A DNA stretch of 49,394 bases from contig SVPM01000008.1 of NCBI GenBank assembly GCA_015065865.1, positions 1-49,394 on the forward strand, in the 5' to 3' direction. The stretch's first letter is position 1, and each line of letters begins with the position of its first letter. A program made the position numbers and the translations under genes. This stretch comes from Oscillospiraceae bacterium (lineage in GTDB: Bacteria; Bacillota; Clostridia; Oscillospirales; Acutalibacteraceae). The notes beneath the pieces are model-generated. The model saw only the letters and a program-made list of their open reading frames with translations, was not told where the DNA came from and ran no database searches. Shown in pieces: positions 30,740-35,585 of the stretch.

Positions 30740-30788
30740 AACAAAAAATATCATATCCCGACTTCTTAATGAGAAGGCGGGATATGAT
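30740..30788 (-). terminator. Terminator of the CotH-VTC-DUF4956 operon
   Basis: ATCATATCCCG-A-CTTCT (30750-30766) pairs with AGAAG-G-CGGGATATGAT (30772-30788); on the minus strand it is followed by ATTTTTTGTTTTATTTC. Confidence 0.85.
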
Positions 30789-30802
30789 ACTTTCAGATGA
30801 TC

Positions 30803-31561
30803 TTACATCGGATCGTAAGTGGAATCGGGACGCTTGTTGAGAAGCACCGTCAGGTTACCGTTACGCGTGCGGATCTCATCGATCATGGCTTTCTCGTCCG
30901 CGCCCTGCTTCAAAGTGATGTCATACATCAATTCAAAGAAGGAACCGAGTTCGATAGTCTTCACACGCGCCAGCGTTGCACGGCGGGTGTAGGTCTTTAA
31001 AACGTCTTCAAAAGTCTTATCCCAGCACATATTCTCGGGCACGGTGATCTTCAGCTTGCAACGCGAGCGGGTGGTCTGACGGGTGAGGCCGATCAGATAC
31101 GCCACCACCAAGAAGATCACGAACACACCGGTTGCCGCCGCGGCATAGGCGAGCAACTTGGAACCGCCTGCCAGACCGATCGCCATCGTGAACACCACAC
31201 AGGCGAGATCTTTCGGGTCGGCGGCGATGCTGCGAAAACGCACCATGGTAAAGATACCGGCCATACTGAGCACACCGATGAAACTGTCGCGCGTGAGGTA
31301 GACGAGCATCGCGATGATACCCGGCAACAAAGCGATGGCGATCATAAAATTCCACGAAAGCGGTTCATCCCGTTTGGTGAACCCATACACGGCGGCGGCT
31401 ACACCGCCGAACAGGCAACAGAACACCGCGATCACAATAAAAGCCAAGAACGGGTGGGATGCCACGGCACTGGATTGTCCCGTCACCAACATATTGGCAA
31501 GCGCATCGGCCGATGAGGTGGGGGATGTGGCAAACAGTTCAGCGATCAGATCAAACAACAT
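30803..31561 (-). CDS. DUF4956 membrane protein
   Basis: A 252-residue protein with four to five membrane segments (about residues 36-60, 71-90, 94-107, 119-133 and 135-160) and a cytoplasmic C-terminal domain of about 90 residues. MVRFRSIAADPKDLACVVFTMAIGLAGG (104-133) is the conserved DUF4956 core. No function is established. It is the last gene of an operon with a VTC-domain protein (16 bp upstream) and a CotH lipoprotein, a grouping seen repeatedly in Clostridia. It could be the membrane partner that lets a cytoplasmic VTC enzyme pass its product outward, by analogy with the yeast VTC complex; this is inference. Confidence 0.85.
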   Translation of the reverse strand: MLFDLIAELFATSPTSSADALANMLVTGQSSAVASHPFLAFIVIAVFCCLFGGVAAAVYGFTKRDEPLSWNFMIAIALLPGIIAMLVYLTRDSFIGVLSMAGIFTMVRFRSIAADPKDLACVVFTMAIGLAGGSKLLAYAAAATGVFVIFLVVAYLIGLTRQTTRSRCKLKITVPENMCWDKTFEDVLKTYTRRATLARVKTIELGSFFELMYDITLKQGADEKAMIDEIRTRNGNLTVLLNKRPDSTYDPM

Positions 31562-31577
31562 AATGGGTACCTCCTAA

Positions 31578-32312
31578 TCATTTCGGGATATACATTCCGT
31601 GGGCGTAGTTATTGTGCAAAAACTGGCGGTATTCGTTGCCGTATTTGGAATAGCTGATACGGGAAAGCTGCAATTTTGAAAAGGTGTCTGCCAGCCATAG
31701 GGGATAGGCAGTACTGACCTTCACTTCCATAATGTATTTCTCCCGCGGGAGAATGTAAGCGCCGTAGGTCTCGTGGTCGAAATCCAGTTCGGTACGGCGC
31801 GCGCGCAGGTTGTAATCGAAGGTGATACGCAGATCATCGTCCTGCGGGAGGAAAAAGGCTTGGCGGTCGTAAAACAACGCCACTTTCGGCGTGGGGTCCT
31901 TTTGATCGAGTATGTATTGGATCTCCCCGTTGATCTGGCGGTTCGTTTCCGACGTATCGGGAGATTCGTGCGTTTCAATAAAAGTCATGGCAGAATCAAA
32001 ATCCGTCTTGACCCGCCGCTTGTTTACGCGGCGGTTGATCTTCTTCTTGATTTCAAAAAACAGGGCGGATTGATTGCCCGTCTCACCGTAACAACGCAGA
32101 CGAAGTTTTTCCTTGTATCGCGGTTTTTGCAAAGAATCGCGGATGAACCAATCGTCCTCGGTGTCAAGATACAGATTGTTGACCAGATAAAATCCGTCGC
32201 CCGTGCTGTATTTATCCGGCACCATATACTCATACAGTTGTTCGCGCACACGGCGATAGGTATCTTCATCCAGCAGATACTTCTTTTCGAACCGGTTGAA
32301 AACCTGTCCCAT
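31578..32312 (-). CDS. VTC-domain protein, polyphosphate-polymerase-like
   Basis: A 244-residue protein consisting of one VTC domain, the tunnel fold of yeast Vtc4 that makes polyphosphate from ATP. Tunnel residues expected from the family are present: RFEKKYLL (7-14), KLRLRCYG (69-76), FEIKKKI (86-92), YDRQAF (148-153), RITFDYN (162-168), IMEVKV (194-199) and the YSKYGNEY end (221-228). No membrane segment is seen, so it should be cytosolic or bound to the DUF4956 partner. It sits 14 bp after cotH-like and 16 bp before DUF4956. Polyphosphate synthesis is the best guess, but other tunnel-fold nucleotide chemistry is possible. Confidence 0.87.
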   Translation of the reverse strand: MGQVFNRFEKKYLLDEDTYRRVREQLYEYMVPDKYSTGDGFYLVNNLYLDTEDDWFIRDSLQKPRYKEKLRLRCYGETGNQSALFFEIKKKINRRVNKRRVKTDFDSAMTFIETHESPDTSETNRQINGEIQYILDQKDPTPKVALFYDRQAFFLPQDDDLRITFDYNLRARRTELDFDHETYGAYILPREKYIMEVKVSTAYPLWLADTFSKLQLSRISYSKYGNEYRQFLHNNYAHGMYIPK

Positions 32313-32326
32313 AGTACCGTCCTTTC

Positions 32327-34318
32327 TTACAGGGTGGAATAGAAAGCGTTCAACGCCGTTTTGCGTTCGGCCAGATAATTCTTCAAATAGGCAACCTGTT
32401 TATCGTAGGTGTCTGCCTTGGCAACGGCCGCGGGTTGCCCCGTGAGCGCCGTGCCGAGGATCTTCCAACGAGTGAAGTTGAGGGCGGCGGCGTTCTTTAA
32501 TGAGGCGGCGGTATCATCGATCACCTTGTTGATACCGTCGGTCACGCCTTTCATCGCCGCCCAACGGGTGCGAAGCACGGCTTTGGCTTCGGGCATCTTA
32601 AACAGATAGGAGAACCAACCGTCTTTGCTGTCGAACAACGGATGTGCCGTGGCGGAGGCGGTTTCGTTATGGTTGCCCGCACAGTTGTCCAAGTCCCACA
32701 GCGGACCGAGTTTCAACTTGCCGCCCACGTCGATGTACATATAGACACTGCTTTCCATAGCCGTGTCGGTATTGTTTAAATACTCCATAATGAGATACCA
32801 ATTGACAAAGGATTCCACGTCCATCCATTTGGATACGGTGGTCCAATCGCCTGTTTTTAAGGCGTTTGCGGCGGTTTCCACCACCAGTGCAATGTAGGTT
32901 ACGTGTTCGGCGGTGAGGTTTTTGGCGTTGGTGGTACGCACCGTCAGCCAGTGGCCGCCGAGCGCTTCGGAATAGAAGAACACTTCGTTGGTGGCGGCAT
33001 CGTAAAAGCCTTTGCCGAGCACTGTCCACTTCTTGCGGTCGGCTTCGGTGGTGTTGTTGTACAAGTGCTTGTCAAACTCCAACAGATACCCCATCTGGTT
33101 TACGGGAACGGCAGGGGAAACGTAGTCGGTGATATCCACGCGGGCGGGTTCCACTTCGATCTTTTCCACCAGTGCATAGACACCTTGGTACTGTCCGTTC
33201 AGCCACAGGTCCACAAAGGCGGAACCCATCGTGAATTCCAACCCCATATTCTTGCTCAAATATTCGCCCAAACGATACCGCATCAACGTGCGGTCGGCGT
33301 GCAGAGCGAGCAGGACGTAGTTTTTGCTTTCCCGCAGGCCAAGCAGTGAATACTTGGTGTCAAAACGCAGGGTGTAACCCTTCTTATCATACGTCCACGT
33401 GGTGTTACCACGGCCTTTGACCGAGCAATCCGCGCCTTTAACGGTGGATTTGGCATCGCCGACCGAGAAGTTGGCGGCTTTGTAGTCCACCGTGTTGTTG
33501 ATGGCGGAGTAACCCGAAGTGGAAAGGGTGAAGGAGGGCAGGCCGCTTCCGATCTTTTCAATGTGGACCGTGACGGTGCGGGTGGAGCCGTTGTTGGCCT
33601 TCAACGTCAGCGTGACGTCTTTCGACAGATCCATCACGGTGGAACGCGAGGTCAGCACCGCGCCGTTATACAGCACGCTGTGACCGTAATATGTGAAGTT
33701 GGGTTTCAACGCCGCAAGATTGGCGTTGGCGGGGAGCAGTGCGGTGATGCGGTCCTCCGTTACGTGGCACGCCACGTTAAACGGCAGGTCTTTGTTATCC
33801 GATGTGGTAAACAAGAACCGCCCGAACTGCTTGGTGTCGGCTTTAACGGTTACCGCTTTGTCTTGCGGGGCGCGTGCCAACGTGGCAAAGGACGTGCCCG
33901 CTTCGGCCGAGGAGGGCAGGATACCTGCAGGGGTGGCGGGGGTATCGGTAACGCCGCCCGCCGCGGTGGTCGGTCTGCTCGTCGGAGTGCCGTTCCCGAC
34001 CGCAGTGGTGCCGCCGCCCGACGGCGTGTTGCCGCTGTGAGAGGGATCGGAACCCGAACCGCTTGCCGTGGTAGACCCGTTTTGGGTAACGGTATTTCCG
34101 TTTGCATCGGTCACGACCGTACCGTCCGCCGTGGTAGTCTCACCTATCGCGCTCGTCACGGCGGCGCCGTTTGCATCGGTGACGACCGACTGTGTGGTGG
34201 TTGCTTGTTTCGCCGTCGTGGTATTGGTGGGAAGATCGTTTCCCTGCGGTTTACAGCCGCCGAGCAGCGTCAGCACACAGGCGGCAACAGCGCATAACGC
34301 CGTCAATCGAGAAAACAC
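32327..34318 (-). CDS. CotH-family surface lipoprotein kinase
   Basis: A 663-residue protein with a GTG start at 34318. LTLLGGC (Cys22) is a lipobox, so it should be anchored outside the membrane. A Thr/Ser/Gly-rich linker (30-140) includes a repeated VVTDANG unit. Residues 150-255 look like cadherin-type beta-sandwich repeats. The CotH domain spans about 260-660: KGRGNTTWTYDKKGYTLRF (301-319), DRTLMRYRLGEYL, LWLNGQYQGVYALVEKIE (371-388) and GPLWDLDNCAGNHN (538-551). CotH proteins are secretory-pathway kinase-like; B. subtilis CotH phosphorylates spore-coat proteins. Here the lipobox points to the cell surface, not the spore. It is the first gene of CotH-VTC-DUF4956. Confidence 0.9.
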   Translation of the reverse strand: MFSRLTALCAVAACVLTLLGGCKPQGNDLPTNTTTAKQATTTQSVVTDANGAAVTSAIGETTTADGTVVTDANGNTVTQNGSTTASGSGSDPSHSGNTPSGGGTTAVGNGTPTSRPTTAAGGVTDTPATPAGILPSSAEAGTSFATLARAPQDKAVTVKADTKQFGRFLFTTSDNKDLPFNVACHVTEDRITALLPANANLAALKPNFTYYGHSVLYNGAVLTSRSTVMDLSKDVTLTLKANNGSTRTVTVHIEKIGSGLPSFTLSTSGYSAINNTVDYKAANFSVGDAKSTVKGADCSVKGRGNTTWTYDKKGYTLRFDTKYSLLGLRESKNYVLLALHADRTLMRYRLGEYLSKNMGLEFTMGSAFVDLWLNGQYQGVYALVEKIEVEPARVDITDYVSPAVPVNQMGYLLEFDKHLYNNTTEADRKKWTVLGKGFYDAATNEVFFYSEALGGHWLTVRTTNAKNLTAEHVTYIALVVETAANALKTGDWTTVSKWMDVESFVNWYLIMEYLNNTDTAMESSVYMYIDVGGKLKLGPLWDLDNCAGNHNETASATAHPLFDSKDGWFSYLFKMPEAKAVLRTRWAAMKGVTDGINKVIDDTAASLKNAAALNFTRWKILGTALTGQPAAVAKADTYDKQVAYLKNYLAERKTALNAFYSTL

Positions 34319-34355: not shown

Positions 34356-34384
34356 ATCTTATCATAGAACACATGCCTTGTCAA
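34356..34384 (-). promoter_or_regulatory. Promoter of the CotH-VTC-DUF4956 operon
   Basis: Minus strand TTGACA (34379-34384), 17-bp spacer and TAAGAT (34356-34361), about 38 bp before the GTG start. Confidence 0.8.
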
Positions 34385-34453: not shown

Positions 34454-34984
34454 TCAGACACGAAATATACGCGCCAAGCGGGGGTGTACTGCTAGCATAT
34501 ACCATTCCCACAAACGGGAAAGGCATAGGTCGTAGAGCAGGAAGGTGACGTTGCCGAGTGCCAACAGTACGAGCGGCATATTTACTCCGAACAGTTCAAA
34601 CGAATTGTCTTCCAACCCAAACAGGTGAAGCATCAGCCAGTAGGCCACTACCACCGTGGCGTTGAACAGCAAAAATTTCAACGGCCACGTTATCACGGGC
34701 GGCAGAGGGTCGAGCGACAGTTTCAAGAGGGGATAATATCCCAAAAATGCGACAAACAGCACTTTTGCTTCCATTGAGGGGGTAAGCAACAAGTTCAATA
34801 TTGCGATCGCCGCAAAAGCGAGCCATCCCCACCGCCGTCCGGTTTCGATCGCCACGGGTACAAGCAATAATCCTGCCACAGCGGGAAGGGCAAAGGTGGC
34901 GTAAGGGAACACGGTGCCGAGCAGACACACTACTGCAAGTGACCCGAACACACCGCCGAGCGCTACTTTTCCACTGGTTTTCAT
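34454..34984 (-). CDS. Small integral membrane protein, unrecognised
   Basis: A 176-residue protein starting MKTSGKVALGGVFGSLAVVCL at 34984; GGAGGG lies six bases upstream. A longer open frame reaching 35242 only shadows the J-domain gene and was discarded. It has about five hydrophobic helices and ends WEWYMLAVHPRLARIFRV. I do not recognise a family; the pattern resembles small Clostridia membrane proteins encoded beside DUF5685 and DnaJ-like genes. It follows the J-domain gene by 13 bp and is the last gene of that operon. Confidence 0.75.
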   Translation of the reverse strand: MKTSGKVALGGVFGSLAVVCLLGTVFPYATFALPAVAGLLLVPVAIETGRRWGWLAFAAIAILNLLLTPSMEAKVLFVAFLGYYPLLKLSLDPLPPVITWPLKFLLFNATVVVAYWLMLHLFGLEDNSFELFGVNMPLVLLALGNVTFLLYDLCLSRLWEWYMLAVHPRLARIFRV

Positions 34985-34997
34985 GCGATTCCCTCCA

Positions 34998-35585
34998 TCA
35001 GCAACAGTGAATGAGGTCGCCGCCCATACATTCACAGCAGCAATCCGCGCAGATAAGGGTGTTGCACACATCGCAAGCCGAGCAACCGCCGCCGACGGGC
35101 GTGGTGGTATAGGTGCCGGTCTGGCGTCCGCGTGACATTTGATTGAACGCCGCGCGGTATTCCGCGTTGGTCGGGTCCATACGGCAGGCGGTGGAGAAAT
35201 GACGGAACGCATCCTCCAGCCAGCCGCGTTTATACAACACACTGCCTTTTAAGAAATGCCATTCCGCATCGCGCGTGACGGCAGGAATACCGTTTAAGAG
35301 GGTGTCGGCATCTTCGATGCGTCCCTCACTCACCATGCGGCGGATATCGGCATAGCGACCGCCGTGGCTGTAGTTGTTGCCGGCGCGGCCGCCCTCTTTA
35401 CGCATACGCACGATGGTGTCGTAGGCTTCGTTGATCTCTTGCATTTTTTCTTGTGCAAGATCCGAAAGCGGATTGTCGCCGAATTGGTCGGGATGATATT
35501 TGCGCGCCATTTCACGGTAGGCGGCTTTGACTTGGTCATCGGTGGCGTCGGGCGAAATGCCGAGCACTTTATACGGATCGGTCAT
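34998..35585 (-). CDS. J-domain protein with Cys-rich tail
   Basis: A 195-residue protein. The J domain covers residues 3-65 with the HPD motif at 31-33 (KYHPDQF), which stimulates DnaK-type Hsp70 ATPase. A TPR-like helical pair follows (about 110-150, AEWHFLKGSVLYKRGWLEDAFRHFS). The tail has ten Cys in the last 30 residues (CSACDVCNTLICADCCCECMGG), unlike the zinc fingers of true DnaJ. It is therefore a specialised co-chaperone, perhaps for a metal-binding client. It lies between DUF5685 (6 bp upstream) and a small membrane protein. Confidence 0.88.
   Translation of the reverse strand: MTDPYKVLGISPDATDDQVKAAYREMARKYHPDQFGDNPLSDLAQEKMQEINEAYDTIVRMRKEGGRAGNNYSHGGRYADIRRMVSEGRIEDADTLLNGIPAVTRDAEWHFLKGSVLYKRGWLEDAFRHFSTACRMDPTNAEYRAAFNQMSRGRQTGTYTTTPVGGGCSACDVCNTLICADCCCECMGGDLIHCC

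Follow-up and report, generated by a model that had tools for sequence, protein, structure and literature searches.

The window analysed here, a stretch of 49,394 nucleotides of an Oscillospiraceae genome, carries an operon whose VTC-domain and DUF4956 proteins we interpret, at a probability of about one half, as a polyphosphate synthase-exporter that would serve an exported surface partner, either a CotH-type kinase, as in the window, or the carbohydrate-binding protein Cthe_2159. The features of the operon are as follows.

32327..34318, minus strand: CotH-type kinase lipoprotein gene (663 amino acids, GTG start; Pfam CotH, 6.7e-36)
31578..32312, minus strand: VTC-domain protein gene (244 amino acids; Pfam VTC, 3.5e-46)
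30803..31561, minus strand: DUF4956 membrane protein gene (252 amino acids; Pfam DUF4956, 1.1e-8)
34356..34384, minus strand: promoter-like site TTGACA-17-TAAGAT (10/12 consensus match, TG-extended -10)
30744..30794, minus strand: intrinsic terminator hairpin with U run (-28.9 kcal/mol, z = -7.6)

An earlier note on this DNA had described a three-gene operon bracketed by one promoter and one terminator, and the coordinates, Pfam matches, spacing and signals bear this out. On the minus strand CotH comes first and VTC and DUF4956 follow, the gaps being 14 nt (CotH/VTC) and 16 nt (VTC/DUF4956), each of which contains a ribosome-binding site (AAGGAC and AGGAGG). The promoter-like site is found approximately 37 nt 5' of the CotH start, right behind the preceding gene's own terminator (34447-34428), and the hairpin 3' of DUF4956 closes the operon. 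As a class, promoter-like sites show no excess over shuffled sequence (6 found, 4.6 expected), so support for the CotH promoter comes from its position and quality. According to Pfam, the flanking genes are unrelated: DnaJ-TPR and DUF5685 genes precede the operon, and genes for an MFS transporter and a LacI regulator follow it. The DnaJ-TPR protein (34998-35585, minus strand) has a cysteine-rich C-terminus (CSACDVCNTLICADCCCECMGGDLIHCC), and its gene adjoins the DUF5685 gene and an open reading frame without Pfam match at 34454.

The VTC protein scores 158 bits against the PF09359 profile, for which the curated cut-off is 23, and a profile of 33 VTC relatives retrieves yeast Vtc4 structures as top match (2e-21). 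It had been claimed that its basic tunnel residues are intact, and this proved correct: K11, R71, R73, K89, K98, R150, K198 and K223 align with Vtc4 K200, R264, R266, K281, K294, R361, K428 and K458, and these eight positions, together with E426 and S457, are kept in 33/33 relatives, the window protein included. Among the same 33 sequences Vtc4 K455 is not conserved. Replacing R264, R266 and E426 impairs catalysis by yeast VTC (PMC9911596). Tunnel hydrolases require metal site 2, made of acidic-patch glutamates, whereas the same positions are basic in Vtc4 (PMC4641920). When the window protein is aligned with Vtc4, the positions of Glu-2 and Glu-171 are occupied by the basic residues R7 and K198, and that of Glu-4 by an acidic one, E9, which is kept in 33/33 relatives. 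With E9 alone acidic, the protein appears nearer to a polymerase than to a hydrolase, although some hydrolase character may persist since E9 is an acidic-patch residue. The AlphaFold2 model (pLDDT 92.6) finds yeast Vtc4 in complex with AppNHp or polyphosphate as its best fold match (3g3r, TM 0.75), noncatalytic Vtc2 ranking below Vtc4, and tunnel hydrolases and cyclases well below. Residues and predicted fold support a polymerase-type tunnel enzyme, the product of which would probably be polyphosphate. In open-licence papers, no activity test or product was found for any bacterial VTC protein; a VTC-domain gene of Clostridium thermocellum, Clo1313_1989, shows signs of convergent mutation in ethanol adaptation (PMC10503014).

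VTC and DUF4956 are an obligate pair. Of 158 distinct VTC genes, drawn from 60 neighbourhoods within the order of the window genome, 80 named-genome loci and additional retrieved loci, 151 have a co-directional DUF4956 as their immediate 3' neighbour; the median gap is -8 nt and the reading frames mostly overlap. Three of the seven VTC genes lacking such a neighbour end at a contig edge. No fused VTC-DUF4956 protein occurs among the loci surveyed. In a sample of 195 genomes of the phylum, DUF4956 was found in 25, every one of which has VTC, and among 14 named control genomes both families are present only in Bacteroides ihuae, Corynebacterium glutamicum and Methanosarcina acetivorans; C. glutamicum has CotH as well. 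The statement that the grouping recurs in Clostridia was right, even understated. Elsewhere in the order, many loci have a response regulator and a histidine kinase adjoining VTC (L057 8878-10801 and similar loci of clusters c3/c4).

DUF4956 had been put forward as the membrane partner of VTC; its standing as obligate neighbour agrees with this part of the claim, and the conduction of polyphosphate is a conjecture. Its model (pLDDT 83.6) places transmembrane helices at approximately 37-157, followed by a cytosolic ACT-like domain at the C-terminus. R108 and R110, invariant across 35 relatives, lie in a membrane helix at the end that is predicted to face the cytosol. In the yeast VTC channel, arginines ring the narrowest point and basic channel residues are required for translocation (PMC9911596); the likeness is one of analogy, not homology, and by this analogy a phosphate polymer might pass through DUF4956. 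A PDB fold search returned ACT/ferredoxin-like matches to the C-terminal domain only, leaving the membrane part without relative, and no whole-fold relative of known function.

The CotH protein starts with a signal peptide and a lipobox (LLGGC), and a low-complexity linker precedes the kinase domain (residues 301-655, positions 33418-32354). A profile of its relatives matches Bacillus cereus CotH (5jd9) at 4e-100; E385, D518, W541 and D542 are conserved, so that the catalytic Asp pair and Trp of PF08757 are present. Exported CotHs retain their catalytic Asp residues. With respect to the adenine-site residues described for Bacillus CotH (PMC12189002), 26 of 35 exported VTC-linked CotHs keep the adenine-stacking Tyr142, which is not a defining feature of PF08757, and all 35 keep Trp245; the window protein has Leu at the Tyr142 position and has apparently lost the Tyr. 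Since most exported CotHs retain both residues, they speak for a nucleotide donor, and the idea that a lost adenine site would prove polyphosphate to be the donor is ruled out. Three further CotH genes, all exported, are found on other contigs of the same genome (L175 7598-10576, L176 9276-11906 and L177 9302-11362); two encode dockerins and one LTD (lamin-tail) and Fn3-associated domains, which suggests that a single VTC-DUF4956 pair serves a group of kinases borne on a scaffold or on the surface.

Exported CotH depends on VTC across genomes. In the order, 201 of 295 genomes carry VTC and 162 carry CotH, with an overlap of 156 (odds ratio 51, p = 2e-33); among 300 genomes of the phylum the respective numbers are 46, 40 and 37 (odds ratio 344, p = 3e-35), both p values ignoring shared ancestry. 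VTC is also found in 21 of 24 families with CotH, the total number of families being approximate, and in the phylum sample 33 of 55 CotH genes lie less than 6 kb from VTC on the same strand. Nearly all VTC-linked CotHs carry a signal peptide, lipobox or membrane anchor, two having unclear start sites, as judged by an N-terminal hydrophobicity scan rather than a trained predictor. When proteins with start-site or contig-end ambiguity are left out, only four full-length CotHs lack a signal segment; these are 352-364 amino acids long and of the Bacillus spore type, and their genomes either lack VTC (two) or have a VTC to which CotH is unlinked (two). Three genomes of the phylum have CotH without VTC, and two of them have only the short, signal-less spore type. 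Several candidate counter-examples were rejected. G009 has suffered a deletion that took out VTC, DUF4956 and one half of CotH at once, and what is left at the scar (L196 481-2697) is a response regulator and, behind it, a truncated kinase sensor domain joined to CotH's C-terminal half; the CotH of G050 is a fragment of 55 positions only; and those of G418 and G433 are of the spore type. Five genomes that are 91-95% complete (G029, G030, G126, G263 and G365) have CotH without VTC and are either real exceptions or incomplete.

Genomes with VTC and no CotH revealed a second surface partner. The commonest gene behind VTC-DUF4956 in the order belongs to the Cthe_2159 family (1e-92 in a scanned example). 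This family is present in all nine CotH-less VTC genomes of the phylum (chance approximately 0.004), so that each of the 46 VTC genomes has at least one of the two partners. At the level of the order, Cthe_2159 appears within the fetched stretch at 15 of 16 VTC loci without CotH. Bacteroides ihuae obeys the same rule with VTC, DUF4956 and Cthe_2159, and L031, a locus from the window's own family, has VTC, DUF4956, Cthe_2159 and CotH in one row. CotH and Cthe_2159 are thus alternative exported partners, and VTC-DUF4956 never occurs without one of them in the survey. The earlier suggestion of CotH as an outside kinase fits with regard to its lipobox, export and tie to VTC, but CotH is one of two alternative partners and its use of the product is conjectural.

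That no function has been assigned to the group was correctly stated, but the grouping itself is already in print: cotH, PPP and DUF4956, together with DUF4832, are accessory genes of Gram-positive Pel loci (PMC7112168, PMC12345266), and C. perfringens NELoc-2 comprises VTC, a 'tubulin' membrane protein, CotH, a HEAT protein and a GT2 synthase (PMC2879425). A 2025 paper reported no such synteny of the triad outside Pel loci (PMC12345266); the window and many surveyed loci contradict this confinement. The window operon resembles Gram-positive Pel loci in the adjacency of these three families, but differs in gene order, in having neither Pel genes nor DUF4832 beside the operon, and in the absence of PelG from its genome (92.6% complete), where PPK1 and PPK2 gave no match either. 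It shares with NELoc-2 VTC, CotH and a small membrane protein that would, from its size and position, be DUF4956; NELoc-2 differs in its duplicated VTC pairs and its GT2 synthase, neither of which the window operon has. At four other loci (L036, L037, L078 and L074 2211-10423), VTC-DUF4956-CotH is followed by a protein of approximately 700 amino acids without Pfam match, and at L074, as in NELoc-2, HEAT and GT2 synthase genes are present too. What is new here is the comparative evidence, namely the obligate pairing of VTC with DUF4956 and the tie to CotH or Cthe_2159.

In the yeast VTC complex (Vtc4/Vtc3/Vtc1), cytosolic polyphosphate synthesis is coupled to translocation across a membrane. 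The VTC-DUF4956 pair may be its bacterial counterpart, being alike in a tunnel enzyme of the same fold and catalytic residues and in a membrane partner with conserved arginines. Unlike the yeast complex, the window VTC consists of the VTC domain alone, with neither an SPX domain nor a fused Vtc1-type domain; DUF4956 is a different membrane family; and an exported kinase or Cthe_2159 is added, the proposed target being the outside rather than the vacuole. VTC would polymerise the gamma-phosphate of cytosolic ATP to polyphosphate inside its tunnel, and DUF4956 would take up the chain via its two invariant arginines and pass it outside, where CotH would use and, in sister operons, Cthe_2159 would hold the polymer. 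CotH might then phosphorylate a surface protein or glycan with phosphate derived directly or indirectly from the exported product. The arrangement that had been envisaged, with VTC synthesis inside, DUF4956 in the membrane and CotH outside, is well supported as an architecture; polyphosphate as product, its conduction and its use by CotH are its conjectural elements. The lack of PPK1 and PPK2 matches in the window's genome speaks for this reading. The MgtC likeness of DUF4956 counts against it, as does the published account of Streptococcus intermedius deletions, which gives effects on aggregation and Pel level for the DUF4956 and CotH genes but none for the VTC gene (PMC12345266). The narrower proposal that exported polyphosphate serves CotH as phosphate donor where ATP is absent is rather unlikely in our estimation, although it would explain why exported CotH rarely occurs without VTC and why the signal-less spore CotH does. 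The latter, the Bacillus spore-coat kinase, shares the kinase fold and catalytic Asp pair with the window CotH, which differs in being a surface lipoprotein tied to VTC. In the phylum, PPK1 is found in 12 of 46 VTC genomes; the other 34 may hold an unrecognised polyphosphate pathway. VTC as a general replacement for PPK1 is unsupported as a rule, as the two weakly co-occur.

The trio might instead be an accessory regulator that adjusts how a polymer resembling Pel or chitin is made or attached, phosphate transfer serving as signalling. Its presence in streptococcal, clostridial and bifidobacterial Pel loci (PMC7112168) fits this explanation, as do the four loci in which the trio is extended, one with HEAT and GT2 synthase genes as in NELoc-2, and the behaviour of Streptococcus intermedius lacking the DUF4956 or CotH gene, whose aggregation in sputum medium falls by more than half and whose Pel level is altered (PMC12345266). 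These mutants still make Pel, however; the window operon has no synthase, its genome lacks PelG, and most loci examined have no recurrent attached synthase. We regard such a regulatory role as improbable, slightly more so than the polyphosphate-donor proposal.

A route in which VTC-DUF4956 exports a nucleotide or other activated phosphate, with CotH phosphorylating envelope sugars like its Golgi Fam20-type relatives, would account for the adenine-site residues kept in most exported CotHs, for the dockerin, LTD and Fn3-associated domains of the other CotHs of the genome and for carbohydrate binding by Cthe_2159. We consider it less likely again, as the VTC residues fit a polymerase and not a nucleotide carrier, and profile and fold searches found no nucleotide-carrier signature in DUF4956. 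Least likely of all in our judgement is phosphate homeostasis, in which DUF4956, with its ACT domain, would regulate in the manner of MgtC and VTC would be either a sensor or a tunnel hydrolase. The MgtC profile (PF02308) weakly matches 10 of 35 DUF4956 relatives, while the window protein matches DUF4956 only; the ACT-like domain, the retained E9 and the two-component genes adjoining several VTC loci would suit such a role. Two of the three key site-2 glutamate positions are nevertheless basic in VTC (PMC4641920), and the tie to exported CotH or Cthe_2159 would be left unexplained.

The survey corrects the published view of the triad as restricted to Pel loci. If the synthase-exporter reading is true, such a system with a kinase outside would answer the question of where an exported kinase obtains its phosphate, and C. 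perfringens NELoc-2, the Pel loci, the dockerin-bearing CotHs and Cthe_2159 would be joined in one system. An obligate, putatively polymer-making pair with an exported partner makes this long-unexplained group of genes directly testable.
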